The position numbers and the translations under genes are program-made. Of a stretch of DNA of 64,000 nucleotides, positions 23,350 through 62,139 are shown one piece after another (position 1 is the first letter of the stretch; every line of letters starts with the position of its first letter). The stretch comes from Anadara kagoshimensis (taxonomy: Eukaryota > Mollusca > Bivalvia > Arcoida > Arcidae): the NCBI GenBank assembly GCA_021292105.1, contig CM037872.1:6807291-6871290 (forward strand), written 5' to 3'. The notes beneath the pieces are model-generated. The model saw only the letters and a program-made list of their open reading frames with translations, searched no databases and had not been told where the DNA came from.

Positions 23350-24268
23350 AAAACAATGAGTAAAAAATGTTCTTTTTGTCCCACTTCAGCAGTATGTTTT
23401 GAAATTTACTTACAATTGAAATGATCTTAACTTGGTCGTTAAACCAAATTTACTCACTTAAAAAGACGTTTTTGAAGTCGGTATTGATTACACCTCGTTA
23501 GCAAATCAATCAATCAATATTTTCTTAGATAGGACTGAATTAAACAGTCTATTTTATGAAAGATCTTTGATTTCCGAGGTGATGACAATCCAATAATTTA
23601 TAGGTTCACACTTATTCATCAATAAATGATCCGCTGCCTTAGAGACAAATCGAACGGGACTAAGTTATAGTAGAATATCGATCAGATTGTCTCCGTCAGA
23701 ATTCTTCAATGGAACATATGTTGAATTGATAGCGTGGGAGTATATCCACCTCCTTGTAAAAACTATTGGTTGCTTTGTTCCCCATTAGTAATTAATGCAA
23801 ATGATTAACTCAAGACAACCGTATTTTGCCATTGATTTTTTCATATAGTTCAAAACTTGATAAATACATTTCAGTCACTCAATTGTCAATTTTTAACAAT
23901 GACATACTGAAATCATTCCAGTGAATGAAGTGAGTTGAACTGGTATGTCTTTGTTATGCCCACAAAGCATTTACGGTGTTGACTAAAGGTAAGTTCACGT
24001 AAAGCATGTCACTAAATCATTTAAGGTTCTTGTTTTAATTTTTTGATTTCCGAAACTCTTTGGGGCATGTCTTTTTTATTTTCAAAAAGATGGTTAACCG
24101 CTAAATAAGTAGTAATAAATCGTTAAAGGTGTATTCCACAAATTGTTTGACTAAAAGTATGTAACAACTGTGCCAATGTATTGCATTTAAAAACTTTTGA
24201 ATATTTTCGTTTCTGATTTATAGAAAGCTTAACATGTTAAAATCTTTCACTGTCTTTTGTTGTTACAG

Positions 24269-24349: not shown

Positions 24350-24677
24350 ATGAGAGTGCAATCCGTTTTAGTATTTGGCGCTGTACTCGTGCATGTAGTA
24401 AATTCACAATTTCCAAGAATGAGATCCTTGTTTCACTCAAATGCCATCAGATCTCAATTACCTTATAGAAAAGTTTCTCGGAATGGAACCAATGTGATTC
24501 AAACCTTGACGGAAACTCAAGAAATCGAAAAAATTAAAAGAAAAATATGTAAATACATTAACATAAAAAATTGCGACAAAAAGTCGAAAGTGCCTGCAAA
24601 CCAGTCGGCTGAACCAAATGGGATTTCAGATGTATCCTCAAAAGAAGCCATTTTTGTTCTAGCTTCGGAACCAGCAG
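24350..24677 (+). CDS. TGF-beta-like ligand gene 1, coding exon 1 (signal peptide and N-terminal prodomain)
   Basis: This exon encodes the secretion signal and the first 109 residues of a TGF-beta-superfamily preproprotein. The ATG at 24350 is preferred over an in-frame TTG at 24332 because it puts a clean signal peptide (residues 1-19, MRVQSVLVFGAVLVHVVNS) at the very N-terminus. Residues 20-109 are prodomain, with two N-glycosylation sequons (NGT at 45-47, and NQS) and an I-C-K-Y-I pair of cysteines at 67 and 75. The exon ends S-E-P-A plus one base at the donor CAG|GTAAGA, so the intron is phase 1. Joined to 28979-29763 it gives 1,113 nt: 370 codons and a stop, with no frame break. The exon resembles 61749-62076 in length, phase and motifs. 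On its own this exon would not be recognisable as TGF-beta; the assignment rests on the second exon. Confidence 0.82.
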
Positions 24678-24704
24678 GTAAGAATTGTGCTTAATTATTT
24701 TGTA

Positions 24705-25025
24705 TGGTGTTTTACACCCCAATCAAGATTCTTTCATTTACATCGACTGTACTGTTCAGGAATGGTGGAGAAAACCAGAATGACCATAAAAACCATTGAC
24801 CTTTTACAAGCGAACTGACAAACTTTCTCACACCGACCTTCCACAAGCGAACTGACAAACTTTCTCCCACAGACCTTCCACAAGCGAACTGACAAACTTT
24901 CTCACACCGACCTTCCACAAGCGACATGACAAACTTTCTCGCACTATAATCTCCTCAGAGTAGGATTCGAAACGAGGCGGTGAGAAGTGCTATGGCTTTA
25001 GACCACTTGTCCACGGTGGCCCACA
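24705..25025 (-). mobile_element. tRNA-headed SINE (second type) carrying a tandem array
   Basis: The minus strand reads a tRNA-Leu/Ser-like head ('accgtggacaagtggtctaa', box B 'cgtttcgaatcct') and ends with 'ttgattggggtgtaaaacac', a tail like that of family S. The body is largely replaced by the 37-bp tandem repeat at 24798-24945. Confidence 0.55.
24798..24945. repeat. 37-bp tandem repeat, four copies
   Basis: The unit 'gaccttccacaagcgaactg' + 'acaaactttctcacacc' starts at 24798, 24835, 24872 and 24909 with few differences. Confidence 0.9.
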
Positions 25026-25091
25026 ATAGTACATAAGGTAAATGTTTATATTAATTGAATGCTTAAAAATAGATGTTTATATCAAAGACTG

Positions 25092-25590
25092 GAGCAGGTG
25101 TAGCTAGCTAACCAAACACAAGCAGCTTACCCTTCCGGTGCAACCGACCTCACTTCTCTGGTGGAAGTTCACGTAATTAGCCTGACTTGCTAGTTCCAAA
25201 GTTTTAATTTTGATTCTGGATTGGGATTCGGACATGGAGAAGTATGCTTGTTTATGATTATATAACTTATATCGAGACAATAACTGTTTTCTTTTATGTT
25301 GCAGTGAATAAATGCGTACTATAGTATACAGTATTTATTGTTGATAAGTTTGATGTGTCTGTGTCCATGATTGCCTTTGATATATTTGACGTCCCATAGT
25401 TCCATGTTCCTTTCACTCCGTTTTTATTACACAAAAAGCGGGTTAAGCTAGCTAAACAGGAGGTGCTTACCCTCTAGGAATACCCGGCCTCACTTCTCTG
25501 GTTTAAAGTTCACCTGATTAACCTAACTTGTCAGTTTTAAAGTTTTAACTTCGACATGGATTGTTTGTTTTTTTGTTTTTTGTTTTTTTT
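25092..25590 (+). repeat. Two family R copies
   Basis: A 3' fragment at 25092-25258 ('ggtgtagctagctaaccaaa' ... 'agtatgcttgtttatgatt') is followed at 25329-25590 by a copy starting at 'tattgttgataagtttgatg', the same truncation region as the copy at 14549. Its last part is shortened and ends in a T-rich run. Confidence 0.65.
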
Positions 25591-25614
25591 TGATACACTA
25601 TAGTTCGAGTTTAG

Positions 25615-25800
25615 TGAAGTAATGGTGTTTTATGACGTTCACGTATAAACAGTAGACGAAAATCACTGACCTGCGTGAAAGGAACTGGCAAAATAACCCG
25701 AACTAGTGAACTAATATCCCCCGAATGGGATTCTTAACATGGCCGCGATATACGCTTGGATCCATCATTAGCGCTATAGACCCCTAAAGCCACCAAGGCC
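25615..25800 (-). mobile_element. tRNA-headed SINE (second type), short
   Basis: The reverse complement starts 'ggccttggtggctttagggg' and has a degenerate box B region near 'aagaatcccattcgg'. Its tail, at the left, is 'gtcataaaacaccattactt'. It resembles the element at 24705-25025. Confidence 0.5.
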
Positions 25801-26206
25801 CAACTTATGGCAACTAGCATTGGTTCTTTTAAATATAATACTACGATTAGTTTGAACCAAAAAGCATGATACATATACACCTTTCAATATTTAGAGACTT
25901 GCCCATTTTCCACTTAATATAGTATAAGCTATTAGAAAATTGATTGACTGTTTTAAGAATCTACATTTGTAACACGATGGCAGTAACATTCAACAAAATG
26001 CTTATATAACAATTGGCCAATTAAATATGAATTGTGCATATCCGCTGCAAGATCGATAAAAAGTTAGTACCATATGTTTTATATATGTAGTTAATTCATT
26101 GTAACATGTAACCATCTTATAAAAAATTGATGGGCACATCCCTAATCCTGTTCTAATTAGTTTCTTATCATATCGAGTAACATAGTTGGTAAGAAAATTG
26201 GGTTAA

Positions 26207-26540
26207 GTGAAGAAATGGTGTTTAACGTCCTAGTCAAGAATATTTCATTTATATCAAGACGTCGCCAGCTAAAGGCGAAGGTGCAGAAATTTGCCTGTGC
26301 GTTGTGCTGATGGTATTATACAGCAAAATTCTTTAACGTGCTCAGCCCACCGTAAGACGGGACCTCGTTAAATTTAAGTTCCTATCCGAAAGAACCGTGA
26401 CTTTCATTCCGTAATGCCGAAAGCTTGGCGAAAGAAGTTATTTCCAATATTCAATTCTTGGTTCAAACCTGGCCAGGGAACGAACCCACAACCTCCCATT
26501 TACGGAGCCAGCACTCTACCAACTGAGCTTCATTAGTGGT
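26207..26540 (-). mobile_element. tRNA-derived SINE (family S)
   Basis: The tail 'atggtgtttaacgtcctagt' is at the left and the head 'ccaactgagcttcattagtg' at the right. It lies in intron 1 of gene 1, antisense to the gene. Confidence 0.75.
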
Positions 26541-26699
26541 GCTTTCGAGTTGTCTCATATCGATAATCGGAATAAACATGGAATGTAATTTTCATCGTTA
26601 CCATAGTTTAACTGACATAATCGGAGCAATTTTTCAGCTGTTCGAGCCAACTACTTTATTAATTTTATGGATTAATCTATGAACAAGTTAGTCTATGCA

Positions 26700-26957
26700 T
26701 GTATAGTGCTAATGTGTTTTATGGTCTGCAATGTACCAGCGCGCACTCAGGGCGACTTTAAGGTACAAGCTCACAGTCAACACACACTTGACAAGCGTAC
26801 AATTCCCCTAGTAACATACTGACCCCGTGTGAACCAGTAAAGGCCAGCGACAAGGAAAATTCACCTTCTTACATGTGGTCTGAGCGGGACTCGAACTCAC
26901 AGCGGTGAGAGACCCTGGATTTGAAGACTGACGTCTTATCCATTAGGCCAGAGCGGC
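26700..26957 (-). mobile_element. SINE with tRNA-Arg-like head
   Basis: The reverse complement of 26957-26875 reads 'ggccgctctggcctaatgga' + 'taagacgtc' ... 'gtgagttcgagtcccgctca', close in layout to a eukaryotic tRNA-Arg. A body including 'ttaaagtcgccctgagtgcg' follows. Related bodies are at 250-430 and 27555-27650. A pseudo-tRNA is the alternative, but the shared body favours a SINE. Confidence 0.6.
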
Positions 26958-26999
26958 CTTAGGAACGCATAGCACTTGCTTCGTATTCGAGATATCAGG

Positions 27000-27460
27000 A
27001 TTCTGACTTTGACTTTAAAAACGTGTGACTGTTTTTTCGTCGTGCAGTCGGCATTACTCAACTGAGGCCTTTGGTCAATTGGAAGCGACTTTGAAAACCA
27101 ATACACTATTTTGGTATGTGTGACTCGATAAAGAACGCTGTGCACTGTGAAAATAAAAAAATCCGCTATTTCTTGATATAAGTGAAATATTCTTGATTGG
27201 AACGTAAACCTCCATTCGATAAATCGATCAGTCGACGCCAGGTAGATTGATTGATTAAATATTTCACTCATATCAAGGTAAAATGCCAGACATTTTGACA
27301 TTTGCAGTTCACTCAGGGCAATGTGTTTTTCTAACGTGCAATGTCTGCCGTGACACGGGGCATCGGTTTTTTATATAAATCCTATAGCTGGTGACCTCGC
27401 GAATTAAAAATTAAGTGAACTTCTCTTGATTGGGATATAAATCTCATTCAATCCATCAAT
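27000..27460. repeat. Cluster of old SINE pieces in both orientations
   Basis: The + strand tail 'gaaatattcttgattggaac' is near 27187. A minus-strand piece, 'aaatatttcactcatatcaa' ... 'gccgtgacacggggcatcgg', spans about 27250-27375. Another + strand tail, 'tatagctggtgacctcgcga', starts at 27378. They are fragments of family S-like elements stacked together. Confidence 0.5.
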
Positions 27461-27554
27461 CAAATAATTGTTCACTGTGATCGTATTTAATTTGGCGATG
27501 AAAAATCACATAAAATGCCCAATTTTATATATATATTTATTTTCGCGGTTTACC

Positions 27555-27650
27555 GTGAGCTAGCACCTTAAAGTCACTCTGAGTGTGCGCTAGTACAAGA
27601 CAGACCATACAATACACTCGCACTTCACCTGCATACACGAAATTGTTTAA
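27555..27650 (+). repeat. SINE body fragment
   Basis: 'ttaaagtcactctgagtgtg' + 'cgctagtacaagaca' matches the reverse complement of the body of the element at 26700-26957, and the stretch at 250-430. Confidence 0.5.
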
Positions 27651-28018
27651 TAAAAAAGTTCTCGTCACGAATAGCTGAAAAATTGCTAATGCGACGTTAG
27701 GCAACATTTAACCAACAAACCAACTAATGCACCACATGAATTTATCTTTAGTGATGGATTAGTATGTTTGTTTTGGTTTAGATTAATACTTGCGATTACC
27801 TACAAATATCCGCGATGCTAAGTTTGTTGAAATTCGCTGATCTCACTTAGTTAAGTGAATGCGAAATCCATTTTCTTTAGCTTCTCTGCCATTTTAATAT
27901 TGTTGTAAAAACTTGATTCAAGGGAGACAACCATAACAAAATCATCAACATATAAATACAATGTGATGCCACTTTTATTGGATTTTCACTAAGTTATCGT
28001 TCTCCAATGGTACACAAC

Positions 28019-28316
28019 ACCTACGGTAGCTCAGTTGTAGAATGCTTGCTAGGTTTGTTAGAGGTCGTGGGTTTGAACCCTGGTCGGGTCTGACCAGCAT
28101 TTGAAAATAGGTAGTAATTATTCTTTTAAAAAGCTCTCGCCATTTCAAAATTAAAGACATAGGTTCCTTTTGAAGCGACATTAAAATTCGATGTCTCGTG
28201 TCACTGCGTGTTACATTTAATAACCCTCTCTGCACATTGCTTGAGAGCACTGCAAAGTTCAAAATTTTTGCCATGTCTGAAATATTATTGACTGGGGCGT
28301 AAAACCCTCATTAAAT
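28019..28316 (+). mobile_element. Diverged family S SINE
   Basis: The head is 'cctacggtagctcagttgta', with box B 'gtgggtttgaaccctgg'. The tail is 'gactggggcgtaaaaccctc' followed by ATTAAATCAATCAAA. It is the last repeat before the exon 2 acceptor. Confidence 0.7.
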
Positions 28317-28978
28317 CAATCAAATGGTATAAACAAAAATAAGTTGTTGTAGCTTTTAAAGGTATAACATGGGGTCCAAAAAAAGAAGGTCCATAAGAAG
28401 GCAATAATTAGCAGTCATATTATTCTACGATGCGTATAGTTTAGTCGTCTAATAATAATGAGATTGTAATAACGATAAATCTGACCCATTACTTACACTC
28501 TTAACAAAATTATTTAATTGAAGACGTTTACTCTGGCGGTTAATTAAAAAAAATTCAATAAATCTTGAATTCATAGCACGTGATTAGACGTTCATAGCCT
28601 CGTAATTTAGACAGTTTTTGTAAGCACAGAGTAGAAAAATAATCTTAACACTGTAGAATCAGTAATTTTTGCCACGATCGCATTGTCTCAGTGAACCCCC
28701 TGAATTATCTCGCCCAAAGAAATTTTTTGTTAGAACTAAGACAATTTTGAGACCAAGAAAGTAAATGATTTCACTGTAATTTTCGATCGTCTTCGTAAAA
28801 CACATTACTGTGGTATAAGTATTCCTGACATTATTTCATATCAACGGTTTCAGGTTAATATATTGGTCTTTCATCAAATTCATGTCTACAATTTTTATTT
28901 TAATATGTGTTTTTTTCTTGTTCTAACATTAATTAATCTCAATTTACACATGTAATGTTTTTTTATTTTCTATTTCAG

Positions 28979-29763
28979 ATCTATCAAACGACACGACATG
29001 TATGAAATTTCGATTCCCAAATACGTTTTTTGAAGACGTGTCGCGAATAAGAAGGATTGACTTATTTGTACGTGTGAAGAAAAGAAATAAGCGACGTCAT
29101 AAATCAAAACGGAACAGACAGATCAGGTTAACATTGTCACTTTTATGCAACTGCAAAGACGACAGACGAGTTATCGGCATTAGGTTACTGCGGCCTGCTT
29201 CCACTGGTTGGATTAAATTTCGTTTACCTATCTTTGTTATTCAAAAGTTACGTAATCCTGGTAACAAAAAACTGGAATTTTGTCTTGCTTGTGAACGTTG
29301 TAACAGAAGGATAAAGGTCACTTTTCCTCTAAAACTGACAACACAGAAACATTCTCGGAGAATAAGAAGACGAAGACGAAAACCTGCAAAATTGCGTCAA
29401 AAAAGACCTTTCCTTCTTATAAGGGAAAGGGGTAAAAAGACGAAACATAGAAGACGTAGGAGACAGCTGACATATTGTAGAAATAACAGTGGTTCACATC
29501 ATTGCTGCAGATCGAAGGAGTATGTACCTTTCAGTCAAATAGGTCTTCACAATATTTTACATCCACGTGGATTTTACCGAACCAGTTGCCTGGGTACATG
29601 CGGTCTACCTCAAAATTTATATTCATTCGGAAACACATCGTCTTGCGTCGCAACTCATACCAGTCCATTTAGAATATTTGTTGTAACAAAAAGGAACTTG
29701 GGGTATATAACAATAAATGATGGCGTTGTACGGCAATGTGGATGCGCAGGATCACAGCGTTGA
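28979..29763 (+). CDS. TGF-beta-like ligand gene 1, coding exon 2 (prodomain and cystine-knot domain)
   Basis: Encodes residues 110-370 of the spliced protein. Residues 110-271 continue the prodomain. This part has seven cysteines and is extraordinarily basic, including an R-R-I-R-R-R-R-R-K run. The last five prodomain residues (267-271) are all Arg, a strong furin-type site before Gln272. The predicted mature chain is residues 272-370 (99 aa; family members usually have about 110-115). It shows Cys276, the CC pair 285-286, V-x-F-x-x-I-G at 292-298, P-x-G-F at 305-308, C-L-G-T-C at 313-317, Cys332, and C-G-C at 363-365, near the C-terminus. This is the TGF-beta/activin cysteine layout. Odd points: the interchain cysteine position is Ser331, only 14 residues separate Cys317 from Cys332 (28 in TGF-beta1 between the last C of C-x-G-x-C and the CC pair), and the usual Trp after I-G is Leu299. 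The mature chain has N-glycosylation sequons NNS (278-280) and NTS (328-330). Role inferred: a secreted ligand or antagonist of the TGF-beta receptor system. The subfamily cannot be assigned. Confidence 0.87.
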
Positions 29764-36129: not shown

Positions 36130-37900
36130 GAGTAGTTAACTAGGGCCTTGATGACATGCCATTTAATACAGGTCATAGCGATCACAACACAAGGAGTGGC
36201 TTACAACAGAAACATGGGCATTGATCACAAAGAGAAAACAACTGAAAGATCAAATCATCCAAACACAAGACCAGAAAGAGAGGCAAGAACTGCAAAAACA
36301 TTACTGGGACAAGAACCGGGAAGTGAAAAGGAGTGCAAGGAAAGACAAGAGATACTTTATTAAAGAGCTGACACAGGAAGCAGACACAGCAGCGGGTCAA
36401 AGAAACATGAAGAGACTCTAAGAGATAACGAGGACCCTCTCTGGAAAAAAACAGCAGACCAAGTCGCCCTGTCAATGACAAGAATGGAAACACTATTTCA
36501 GGCGAAGAAGAACAGAGAGCAAGATGGATGGAACACTTTAAGGGAACACTCAACAGACCAGCACCATCAGTTCTGCCAGACATCCCACCTCCCTCTAAAG
36601 TCCTCAATATCAACACTGGTCCACCTAGCAAGCACGAAATAATGAAGGCCATAAAGTCATTGAAATCTGGTAAAGCAACAGGCCTAGATGGTATACCACC
36701 CGAAGCATTCAAGGCAGATATCCAGACCTCAATTGACATGCTACATCCACTCCTTAACAAGATCTGGGAGCAGGAGAAAGTACCAGAAGATCGGAAGAAA
36801 GGACAACTTGTGAAGTTGCCAAGAAGAGGGACTTGTCATCCTGCAACAACTGGAGAGGAATCGTGCTCCTGTCGATCCCAGGGAAAGTACTGTCAAGAAT
36901 CATCTCAGAGAGACTTAAGATAGCACTGGACAAGACACTCCGAGATGAACAGGCTGGCTTTCGGCAAGATAGATAATGTACAGACCACATTGCCACCATG
37001 CGCATCATCATCGAACAGTCCCTGGAGTGGCAAGCCCTAATGTACTCAGTCTTTGTCGACTTTCAGAAGGCATTCGAGTGTGGATAGGGATGCCATCTGG
37101 AAACTGATGTACCATTATGGCTTTCCACCAAAGTTTGTTCAACAACTGTATGAAGGTGCCACTTGCCAAGTCATTCATGATGGGAAGCTGACAGAACCTT
37201 TCTCTGTACAAACCGGAGTCCGACAGGGATGCCTGTTGTCACCAACAATCTTCCTTAATGTCATTGACTGGATAATGCGTCAGACCACAACATCAAGGAA
37301 GCTGACAAGTTTGTTTACCTGGGCAGTGTCATCAGTATGGGGGTACAAATGAAGACATAAAGTGCCGCATCAACAAAGCCAAATTTATTTTCAAATTCCT
37401 TCAACCAATCTGGAGATCAACAGCCCTCTCAATAAAATACAAGATCCGGATCTTCAACATCAACGTCAAGTCCATCCTACTATATGGCTCAGAAACCTAG
37501 AGAGTAACTAAGACCAACACCCACAAACTCCAGACATTTGTCAACAGATGCCTCAGGAACATCCTTAACATCAGATGGCCTGAAGTTGTCTCAAACAAAC
37601 AACTATTGGACAGGACCAGACAAGTTCCAATCGAGTCTGAAATCAGGAAACGAAAATGGAGATGAATTGGCCACACACTACGCAAGCCTACATCAAATGC
37701 CACCAGGCAGGCTCTTGACTGGAACCCACAAGAGAAGAGGAAGAGAGGCCAACCTAAACAGACTTGTCGTAGGAGTATCGACACTTGGGCACAAACAGTT
37801 TGAAAGACTTGGGCCGAACTGAAAAAAATAGCCCAAAACTGTGTCAGATGGAGAGGTGTTGTTGCGGCCCTTTGTTCCCCAGAAATCAAGAAGAATAAGT
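36130..37900 (+). pseudogene. Decayed non-LTR (LINE) reverse transcriptase
   Basis: Coding fragments in shifting frames trace one + strand retrotransposon ORF. 36221-36421 is a Lys/Gln-rich region upstream of the RT. 36528-36840 carries the start of the RT domain, with K-S-G-K-A-T-G-L-D-G-I-P-P-E-A. 36840-37080 continues in another frame with an 'E-Q-A-G-F'-type block and 'F-V-D-F-Q-K-A-F'. 37080-37300 has V-R-Q-G-C-L-L-S-P. Then a deletion removes the [YF]-x-D-D catalytic block and joins directly to the downstream 'Y-L-G-S-V-I-S' region, followed by 'L-L-Y-G-S-E-T' and an Arg-rich C-terminal tail near 37740-37800. There are multiple frameshifts and stops, so it is inactive. The clade (RTE-like or other) was not resolved. 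Confidence 0.85.
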
Positions 37901-41953: not shown

Positions 41954-43474
41954 CCACACAGCAAGTTAGCAACTACTGTGAAGGTTAATCCACAACAAGT
42001 TAGCAACTACTGTGAAGGTTAATCCACAGCAAGTTAGCAACTACTGTGAAGGTTAATCCACAGCAAGTTAGCAACTACTGTGAAGGTTAATCCACAACAA
42101 GTTAGCAACTACTGTGAAGGTTAATCCACAGCAAGTTAGCAACTACTGTGAAGGTTAATCCACAGCAAGTTAGCAACTACTGTGAAGGTTAATCCACAGC
42201 AAGTTAGCAACTACTGTGAAGGTTAATCCACAGCAAGTTAGCAACTACTGTGAAGGTTAATTTACAAGTTAGCAACTACTGTGAAGGTTAATCCACAGCA
42301 AGTTAGCAACTACTGTGAAGGTTAATCCACAGCAAGTTAGCAACTACTGTGAAGGTTAATTTACAAGTTAGCAACTACTGTGAAGGTTAATCCACAGCAA
42401 GTTAGCAACTACTGTGAAGGTTAATCCACAGCAAGTTAGCAACTTCTTTGAAGGTTAATCCACAGCAAGTTAGCAACTACTGTGAAGGTTAATTTACAAG
42501 TTAGCAACTACTGTGAAGGTTAATCCACAACAAGTTAGCAACTACTGTGAAGGTTAATTTACAAGTTAGCAACTACTGTGAAGGTTAATCCACAGCAAGT
42601 TAGCAACTACTGTGAAGGTTAATCCACAGCAAATTAGCAACTACTGTGAAGGTTAATCCACAGCAAGTTAGCAACTACTGTGAAGGTTAATCCACAGCAA
42701 ATTAGCAACTACTTTGAAGGTTAATCCACAACAAATTAGCAACTACTGTGAAGGTTAATCCACAGCAAGTTAGCAACTTCTTTGAAGGTTAATCCACAGC
42801 AAATTAGCAACTACTGTGAAGGTTAATCCACAGCCAGTTATCAACTACTGTGAAGGTTAATCCACAGCAAGTTAGCAACTACTGTGAAGGTTAATCCACA
42901 GCAAGTTAGCAACTACTGTGAAGGTTAATCCACAGCAAGTTAGCAACTACTGTGAAGGTTAATCCACAGCAAGTTAGCAACTACTGTGAAGGTTAATCCA
43001 CAGCAAGTTAGCAACTACTTTGAAGGTTAATCCACAACAAATTAGCAACTACTGTGAAGGTTAATCCACAGCAAGTTAGCAACTTCTTTGAAGGTTAATC
43101 CACAGCAAGTTAGCAACTACTGTGAAGGTTAATCCACAGCAAATTAGCAACTACTGTGAAGGTTAATCCACAGCAAATAAGCAACTACTGTGAAGGTTAA
43201 TCCACAGCAAGTTAGCAACTACTGTGAAGGTTAATCCACAGCAAATTAGCAACTACTGTGAAGGTTAATCCACAGCAAGTTAGCAACTACTGTGAAGGTT
43301 AATCCACAGCAAGTTAGCAACTACTGTGAAGGTTAATCCATAGCAAGTTAGCAACTACTGTGAAGGTTAATCCACAGCAAATTAGCAACTACTGTGAAGG
43401 TTAATTCACAGCAAATTAGCAACTACTGTGAAGGTTAATCGACAGCAAATTAGCAACTACTGTGAAGGTTAATC
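41954..43474. repeat. 34-bp satellite array, about 45 copies
   Basis: The unit 'cagcaagttagcaactactg' + 'tgaaggttaatcca' (34 bp) is repeated head to tail for about 1.5 kb with very little divergence. Recurrent variants include a 31-bp form in which the CCACAG spacer is replaced by TTA, AAATTAGC for AAGTTAGC, and ACTTCTTTG for ACTACTGTG. The variants recur in blocks, as expected from unequal exchange. There is no open frame or obvious promoter motif. Confidence 0.95.
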
Positions 43475-60899: not shown

Positions 60900-61740
60900 A
60901 AAAAGTAAAAATTTTTACGAACTGTAAAATCACAAATATTAGTGGGGTATTTCAATTTTCTCGTGGTTAAGTCAATACCACAAAAGTAAATTTCAACATT
61001 TCCACTAATATTTTTCCAAACATTGTTTTATTACAAAAACATGAAAGTTTAACCCTATGGAATCAATATTAATGACACTGTAGTATTACTTTTATACAGA
61101 AAGTAAAGTCAACATCACGCCATCACTGGATAAAAAAATACAATTGATTAACTCCTAACAAAACGTTTTTCTCTTGATCAATAATAAACTATCATTTCTT
61201 CATTTGCCACAAAACAAGAAGGGTTTTCCCCAAAACTATTTATATCTGAGAAATTAAGTTGTAGTAAACCATTCAGAAAATTGCCCTTTTATGGCGTGGG
61301 TGGTGTAAATGAATTAAATATGAGCCAATCTTTTTGTCTCATACTAAATATCAATACACCTTTTAGCAAACAAACACGGTTTAAATTTCCTATATACTTG
61401 CAGCTGGATGTCCACTGTATTTCGCTCAGCACTAAATGACAAATCAGTTAAGAGAGATCTTTTTAAATCTATTTTATTTTTGACTAACTATACATGGAGA
61501 GACGTTATACGTACTAATCACCAATTACGTTCGTTGAATATCTTTTGTATGGCAATTTTTATCGCGAATTTAAACTACTTTAAACTTTCTATGTTATGGT
61601 ATGCTATAGGTTCAGCATAAATAATATGTTTAAAATCAATTTGTAAGCAGTTAATGTCTAGTTTATGCAAACGGATCAAAAACATTTATATGAGTGACAT
61701 ACATATATAAATATAAAGTCTTTGGTATTGTGATTTGACT
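60900..61740. other. Region upstream of gene 2; no gene assigned
   Basis: A 70-codon + strand frame (61408-61620) lies just upstream of gene 2, but nothing identifies it. It could include part of a 5' UTR. No promoter element could be called. Confidence 0.3.
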
Positions 61741-61748
61741 TTTCAGAA

Positions 61749-62076
61749 ATGGCTTTACTATACTGGAGGATAACTTATATGAAATATGTTACATTTTACA
61801 CATTGCTTTTGTTTCATTTACTTATATACTTAACTTGTGGACAACATGCGAATAGTTTAACTTTTGGAACTCGATTTAATGAAAAAATGTGGAGACAGAT
61901 ATACAAAAATAGAATATGTAAATTTATTAGACATGCAGGATGCTTTAAAACGGAACCCGGAACAAATATATCGCAAGTAGACGATACTTCAATATCTACA
62001 GAAAGTATCAACAATGTTATTACGCCGACTGCATCCACAGTTCCTGTTAGAAGACTGATCCTCTCTGAACCACAAG
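61749..62076 (+). CDS. TGF-beta-like ligand gene 2, coding exon 1 (partial gene)
   Basis: The first 109 codons plus one base of a secreted protein, ending at a donor AAG|GTAAGA. The N-terminus is hydrophobic (about residues 11-30, ending L-T-C-G-Q), consistent with a signal peptide; translation could also start at Met11. The exon matches coding exon 1 of gene 1 in exact coding length (328 nt) and intron phase (1). It also matches in the motif R-I-C-K-F-I with Cys57 and Cys65 (the same seven-residue gap as Cys67-Cys75 in gene 1) and in the ending L-S-E-P-Q-G across the junction. Elsewhere the two are too diverged to align by eye. An N-glycosylation sequon (NIS) lies in the middle. A splice acceptor-like 'tttcag' ends at 61746, two bases before the ATG. 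The knot-encoding exon is presumed to lie beyond 64000. Confidence 0.68.
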
Positions 62077-62139
62077 GTAAGAACTATAAATGGTTTTAGG
62101 GTTTTTCGTTTTTTTTTCGAGATATTTGTTTTACGTATT

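Follow-up and report, generated by a model that had tools for sequence, protein, structure and literature searches.

Results

A TGF-beta-like ligand without its wrist module

The window analyzed here, by which we mean the whole stretch of 64,000 nucleotides at positions 6,807,291 to 6,871,290 of contig CM037872.1 (GenBank assembly GCA_021292105.1) from the bivalve Anadara kagoshimensis, contains a well-formed two-exon gene for a TGF-beta-like precursor, whose mature domain has undergone a coherent loss of the wrist helix, the interchain cysteine and both wrist tryptophans. Each of these parts has known precedents. As helix, cysteine and both tryptophans are all missing together, the best reading is that an activin-branch ligand has lost its dimerization and type I receptor module and turned into a monomeric antagonist, which we consider to have about an even chance of being correct.

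The mature part carries eight cysteines (276, 285, 286, 313, 317, 332, 363 and 365) in the order C..CC..C..C..C..C.C. It matched PF00019 with 39.6 bits (E 9.4e-10; cut-off 27 bits), the full profile (1-104) being covered across only 82 residues. The extra N-terminal Cys276 together with the CC pair Cys285-Cys286 gives the pattern of the activin/TGF-beta branch. The following features were located in this domain:

29464..29760, plus strand: mature growth-factor domain, residues 272-370, with eight cysteines (PF00019 and PDB matches)
29545..29553, plus strand: Leu299-His300-Asn301 in place of the TGF-beta Trp-Lys-Trp (5tx6 alignment, codons)
29602..29643, plus strand: residues 318-331, the wrist collapsed to 14 aa, with Ser331 as its last residue (5tx6 alignment, codons)
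29632..29640, plus strand: sequon Asn328-Thr329-Ser330 (predicted glycosylation), Asn328 aligning with a Lys of the engineered 5tx6 loop
29671..29673, plus strand: Arg341 at the knuckle position of Ser88 in BMP2 and Ser90 in activin A (5tx6 alignment, codon)

The cysteine that usually links the two chains of a covalent dimer is missing, its position being occupied by Ser331 (codon TCT, 29641-29643). At the type I receptor site, a loop of 14 residues between Cys317 and Cys332 takes the place of the wrist helix, and Leu299 and Asn301 that of the wrist tryptophans. Three features of one module are therefore lost, yet all eight knot and intrachain cysteines are retained. Of the five N-glycosylation sequons in the precursor, Asn278 and Asn328 belong to the mature domain. 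The initial annotation of this locus had described a spliced protein of 370 residues with an eight-cysteine knot, Ser331 in place of the first cysteine of the usual CC pair, a 14-residue gap and Leu299 in place of a tryptophan. The exon join and the codons bear out all of these points, including each of the eight cysteine positions; the description was incomplete in that the second wrist tryptophan is gone as well.

For comparison, we used a panel of 15 human mature domains. The stretch from the CxGxC motif to the intrachain cysteine comprises 26-36 residues in 14 of these, 18 in LEFTY2 and 14 in the candidate. GDF9 and BMP15 lack the same cysteine and still act as ligands (PMC6953019), so that the candidate might likewise form a non-covalent homodimer with agonist activity. 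However, GDF9 and BMP15 keep a wrist of 32 residues and both tryptophans, whereas the candidate has neither, and we regard this alternative as quite unlikely. The earlier statement that family members without the interchain cysteine keep a long wrist is thus correct for GDF9 and BMP15 and wrong for LEFTY2.

Probable convergence with Lefty in the loss of the wrist

When the mature domain was compared with the PDB, the best matches were 5tx6 and 5tx4, both TGF-beta2 (24.9 bits; E 0.00019 and 0.0002), followed by inhibin beta B and beta A (24.7 bits each), BMP10 (24.5 bits) and a further TGF-beta2 entry, 5tx2 (23.1 bits); wild-type TGF-beta2 (1tfg) reached 16.3 bits (E 0.09). The entry 5tx4 is mmTGF-beta2, in which the heel helix is replaced by a loop and which is far more soluble than the dimers (PMC11865472). 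We take 5tx6 to be the same design, the printed letters being identical in the aligned stretch. The 5tx6 match forms one continuous stretch, whereas the activin matches are split in two around the missing wrist.

Within the human panel, the full-length comparison placed LEFTY2 first (26.3 bits), ahead of INHBB and INHBA (24.8 bits), which raised the question of a true Lefty ortholog in a protostome. The eight-cysteine layout and the short wrist are shared with Lefty, and a bilaterian-specific Lefty orthogroup has been claimed (PMC7535936). However, short-wrist sequences gain from the common gap in such a comparison. With the wrists excised, INHBB (38.4 bits), INHBA (37.4), TGFB1 (36.2), TGFB3 (35.9), GDF8 (34.9) and GDF5 (34.3) all preceded LEFTY2 (33.1), which was now seventh, and in the reverse comparison LEFTY2 as query ranked the candidate fourth of 15. 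The N-terminal half alone gave INHBB (22.0 bits) and TGFB1 (21.7) as best matches with LEFTY2 fifth, while for the C-terminal half GDF5 led with 19.6 bits and LEFTY2 was 12th. The LEFTY2 prodomain scored only 1.6 bits against that of the candidate. The knuckle proline and the long beta6-beta7 loop of Lefty (PMC11239237) are missing in the candidate, which has Arg341 and only 30 residues between Cys332 and Cys363, compared to 34 at the corresponding place in LEFTY2. Other papers report that spiralians or scallops have no lefty. When LEFTY2 was itself compared with the PDB, no entry named Lefty appeared among the best 60 of 65 matches. Orthology to Lefty was set aside after wrist excision and appears highly improbable; as LEFTY2 falls to seventh place in that control, the missing wrist points to convergence rather than to kinship with Lefty. 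Instead, the cysteine pattern, the N-terminal half and the prodomain favor the activin/TGF-beta branch, which the C-terminal half does not support.

The mature domain is encoded in one uninterrupted frame

The join of 24350-24677 and 28979-29763 on the plus strand yields exactly 370 aa and a stop codon. The gene is composed as follows:

24350..24677, plus strand: coding exon 1, with a signal-peptide-like start (by eye), an alpha1-like helix with C-x7-C and a phase-1 end at a GTAAGA donor
24678..28978, plus strand: intron GTAAGA...TTTCAG of 4.3 kb, containing repeats
28979..29763, plus strand: coding exon 2, with the remaining prodomain, the cleavage site and the whole mature domain; stop codon TGA at 29761-29763

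The start codon of the precursor stands in the context CAAAACAGCCATGAG. Further upstream, a 5' untranslated region intron is likely (donor GTAAGT at 23989, acceptor end at 24268), ending 81 bases before the ATG. The intron between the coding exons also harbors a tandem array with a 37-bp unit (24806-24940, 3.6 copies).

Exon 2 carries a stop-to-stop frame of 276 aa. As the longest frame in 200 simulated 64-kb windows (order-1 Markov) was 216 aa, with a mean of 138 aa, chance does not account for it. Since the mature domain occupies a single intronless frame and the window is free of any N, an unseen exon within this domain is ruled out. Scanned within set limits for segments flanked by AG and GTRAG (length 30 nt or more, no more than 600 nt between acceptor and donor, reading frame preserved), the intron returned a single candidate exon of 57 nt (26848-26904). 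This weak candidate would fall into the prodomain and, as we read it, sits in a repeat-like stretch. The extra exon for residues 317-332 that the initial annotation had considered as a possible source of error was accordingly not found. The 370-aa protein, used as tblastn query against the window, revealed no second knot domain. Neither did a home-made knot profile containing the candidate, for which the next best match in all six frames (of at least 20 aa) had E 2.5.

A decaying gene or an error in assembly or annotation would be another explanation. However, besides the length of the open frame, which no simulated window reached, the in-frame loss and the cysteine and tryptophan substitutions form a coherent set, and the other cysteines, the splice sites and the cleavage site are intact. 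We therefore consider decay or error very unlikely.

The prodomain resembles those of activin A and scallop family members

The precursor shows the layout of the superfamily, with a signal peptide (by eye), a prodomain and a basic cleavage site ahead of the knot. In a phmmer comparison with the PDB, exon 2 matched pro-activin A (5hly, E 4.7e-8) and pro-TGF-beta1, and its prodomain part has an ACE-x-C motif in common with activin A as well as an RPFL motif. Two features were assigned to this part of the protein:

29200..29322, plus strand: residues 184-224, the arm-type core of the prodomain, containing C-x2-C-x2-C (Cys211, 214 and 217; phmmer, scallop MEME motif 15)
29452..29463, plus strand: residues 268-271, RRRR, where a furin-type enzyme probably cleaves ahead of Gln272 (pattern)

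Three of the 20 MEME motifs reported for scallop TGF-beta genes (PMC10763453, Table 3) resembled the prodomain by eye, and 13 of the 20 were scored against shuffled sequences (n = 500). Motif 15, with a score of 78, was the sole one of the 13 to lie above all shuffles. Motifs 10, 16 and 17 were equalled or exceeded by 6, 9 and 78 of the 500, respectively, and the best untrimmed alignment of motif 16 lay outside alpha1. Trimmed segments, which were picked after the similarity had been noticed, were compared with 2000 shuffles. None of these reached the scores of motif 15, cut to its core by removal of the basic tail, against residues 184-224 (score 48) or of the alpha1 stretch of motif 16 against residues 51-72 (score 39); trimmed motif 17 remained weak (17 of 2000). 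This likeness to scallop prodomains is in keeping with a molluscan source.

Exon 1 contributes a C-x7-C pair formed by Cys67 and Cys75. Such a pair is present both in this gene (24548-24574) and in its probable tandem copy (61749-62076), inside alpha1 or directly behind it. In scallop motif 16, cysteines are missing at the alpha1 site, and a C-x7-C follows some 70 residues later. The pair of the two copies could serve as an anchor of the prodomain to a partner protein.

Directly ahead of the mature domain, 27 of the 53 residues between positions 219 and 271 are Lys or Arg. A segment this basic would suit a monomeric ligand that acts through an unrelated receptor or a matrix/heparin partner and not as an antagonist of the pathway. 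However, the segment would be removed if the predicted cleavage happens, and a comparable basic run is found in scallop motif 15 (PMC10763453), which leaves this explanation rather improbable.

A probable tandem copy near the end of the window

A second, diverged copy of the gene probably starts at 61749, and its exon 2 would be expected beyond the window:

61749..62076, plus strand: probable tandem-paralog exon 1, with a phase-1 SEP-x-G/GTAAGAA donor and a C-x7-C pair

Within the open frame at 61734-62099, an acceptor immediately precedes the first ATG (61749), which opens a hydrophobic start. From first ATG to donor, both copies measure 328 nt; their phase-1 donors are nearly identical in letters (SEPQ-G/GTAAGAA in the paralog, SEPA-G/GTAAGAA in the gene), and the C-x7-C settings are alike (RICKFIRHAGC and KICKYINIKNC). 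The residue alignment of the two first exons is marginal, its score of 43 being reached by 3 of 1000 shuffles. The paralog exon 1 had no Pfam match above cut-off, and none of the 13 scallop motifs stood out against it (best, motif 20; 24 of 500 shuffles).

A pattern search returned 26 matches in genome contigs, none of them confirmed. Of five matches in viral contigs, one was confirmed and subsequently rejected as chance; it rests on the common string QNLYSFGNT, and its frame encodes a repetitive viral protein of 892 aa without cysteines.

Other features of the window

Reverse transcriptase fragments, non-LTR-like by eye, span 36429-37352 on the plus strand. The part at 37041-37349 matched RVT_1 with E 1.5e-6 and 28.5 bits, just below the curated cut-off of 29.6, and the part at 36429-36920 gave no match above cut-off. 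A tandem array with a 34-bp unit extends over 41957-43474 (about 45 copies, 94% matches). Neither Rfam, at gathering score, nor ARAGORN produced any match.

Discussion

A possible monomeric antagonist of Activin/Nodal-type signaling

If the candidate is a monomeric antagonist, the prodomain would fold and chaperone the mature domain, which furin-like enzymes would then set free. The secreted form would be a monomer with four internal disulfides that retains fingers and knot and is devoid of wrist helix, interchain cysteine and both wrist tryptophans. The type II receptor site lies within a single monomer, while the type I site requires both (PMC6953019); a monomer would therefore be unable to recruit a type I receptor. 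By one-sided occupation of an ActRII-like type II receptor or a co-receptor, it may thus act as an antagonist and dampen Activin/Nodal-type signaling, as do Lefty, inhibin alpha or the engineered mmTGF-beta2. The source paper of the related mmTGF-beta2-7M reportedly presents this monomer in its title as a dominant negative. Its binding to TbetaRII was indistinguishable from that of TGF-beta3 (PMC9163516). Deletion of the wrist helix in activin betaA abolished agonism and left a weak antagonist (IC50 56.7 nM), which competed for ActRIIB with an IC50 of 47.6 nM compared to 4.14 nM for activin A (PMC2832003). Lefty blocks the EGF-CFC co-receptor and, for want of the interchain cysteine, may function as a monomer (PMC340941).

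Several observations weigh against this interpretation. The 5tx6 match exceeds that of inhibin beta B by no more than 0.2 bit, query and 5tx6 have the short loop in common, and the wrist-excision control shows that the scores of short-wrist matches are inflated. With the whole exon 2 as query, pro-activin A came first in the PDB and 5tx6 only 14th. Wrist-deleted betaA still homodimerizes, with some monomer (PMC2832003), and zebrafish Lefty1 binds Cripto and not ActRIIB or Alk4 (PMC340941). The knuckle serine matters for agonists (PMC11239237), and Arg341 at this position could weaken binding to ActRII. Finally, a single-sequence AlphaFold model was of low confidence (pLDDT 36.2, pTM 0.34).

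The initial annotation had proposed a monomeric or non-covalent ligand with altered type I receptor contact, possibly a decoy. This proposal fits the anatomy and the precedents of the betaA deletion, Lefty and the mini-monomer. As a nearly identical combination is found in Lefty and in engineered TGF-beta2, however, the protein is less singular than had been claimed. A more far-reaching version is that a tandem-duplicated activin-branch gene of a spiralian lost wrist helix, interchain cysteine and wrist tryptophans together and independently became a monomeric Activin/Nodal antagonist, with a sequon where the engineered monomer has a Lys; this we put forward only tentatively, as a doubtful case. 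A search of open-licence papers revealed no description of this ligand, which is weak evidence given that restriction.

Should the protein be a monomeric antagonist, TGF-beta ligands would have become blockers more than once through loss of the same module; Lefty, protein engineers and, in part, inhibin alpha seem to have arrived at this solution too. A natural sequence of this kind would also reveal how the domain remains in solution when it has no partner. Spiralians are without a generally accepted Lefty. For protostomes, where Nodal is known and Lefty is disputed, the gene would, if the reading is true, provide a candidate extracellular inhibitor that is testable in embryos.

Comparison with known systems

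Inhibin alpha offers a parallel and, at the same time, a further explanation. In PMC2832003, the wrist helix of human inhibin alpha is described as deleted, with a Pro-rich insertion filling the place; for non-mammalian vertebrates, the deletion is proposed as a switch from agonist to antagonist, and in the inhibin alpha lineage it is tied to heterodimer formation. A lancelet inhibin-alpha-like ligand, which PMC2832003 and PMC11239237 place differently, has a partial wrist-helix deletion (PMC2832003) and no dimer cysteine (PMC11239237). By analogy, the candidate might be an obligate heterodimer subunit that pairs non-covalently with a normal activin-type subunit into an asymmetric ligand or trap, and the C-x2-C-x2-C retained in its prodomain could pair the precursors. 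However, vertebrate inhibin alpha has an N-terminal extension and forms its heterodimer with a beta subunit (PMC2832003), to which it is linked by a disulfide that Ser331 does not allow for in the candidate. Human inhibin alpha has the interchain cysteine, keeping the CC pair and, because of the insertion, 32 residues in the wrist stretch. Moreover, the candidate has lost both wrist tryptophans, the expected receivers of the partner's helix. Taken together, we judge a heterodimer subunit unlikely.

The monomeric antagonist, in turn, finds likenesses in several other ligands. Panda, Maverick and GDF15-like members also have a divergent WxxW; for Panda and Maverick, this divergence has been suggested to lower binding to type I receptors, and sea urchin Panda antagonizes via a type II receptor; in Panda, though, the switch is a knuckle proline (PMC11239237). 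Scallop members with motifs 15 and 16 resemble the candidate in prodomain alpha1, arm core, RPFL-I motif and basic run, but scallop motifs 1-4 include a CC pair (PMC10763453). With Lefty, the candidate shares the order of the eight cysteines, the missing interchain cysteine, the short wrist and the possible monomeric state. It differs in its knuckle and in the beta6-beta7 loop, as set out above, and keeps neither of the two wrist tryptophans that LEFTY2 retains.

Engineered mmTGF-beta2 (5tx4) likewise has no heel or wrist helix, and its chain of 92-93 aa aligns at the same eight cysteines. The Ser that ends its loop aligns with Ser331, both standing at the site of the interchain cysteine. The engineered protein retains Trp-Lys-Trp, and its loop is five residues shorter in the alignment, whereas the protein encoded in the window is natural, probably of the activin branch, and has a sequon inside the loop.

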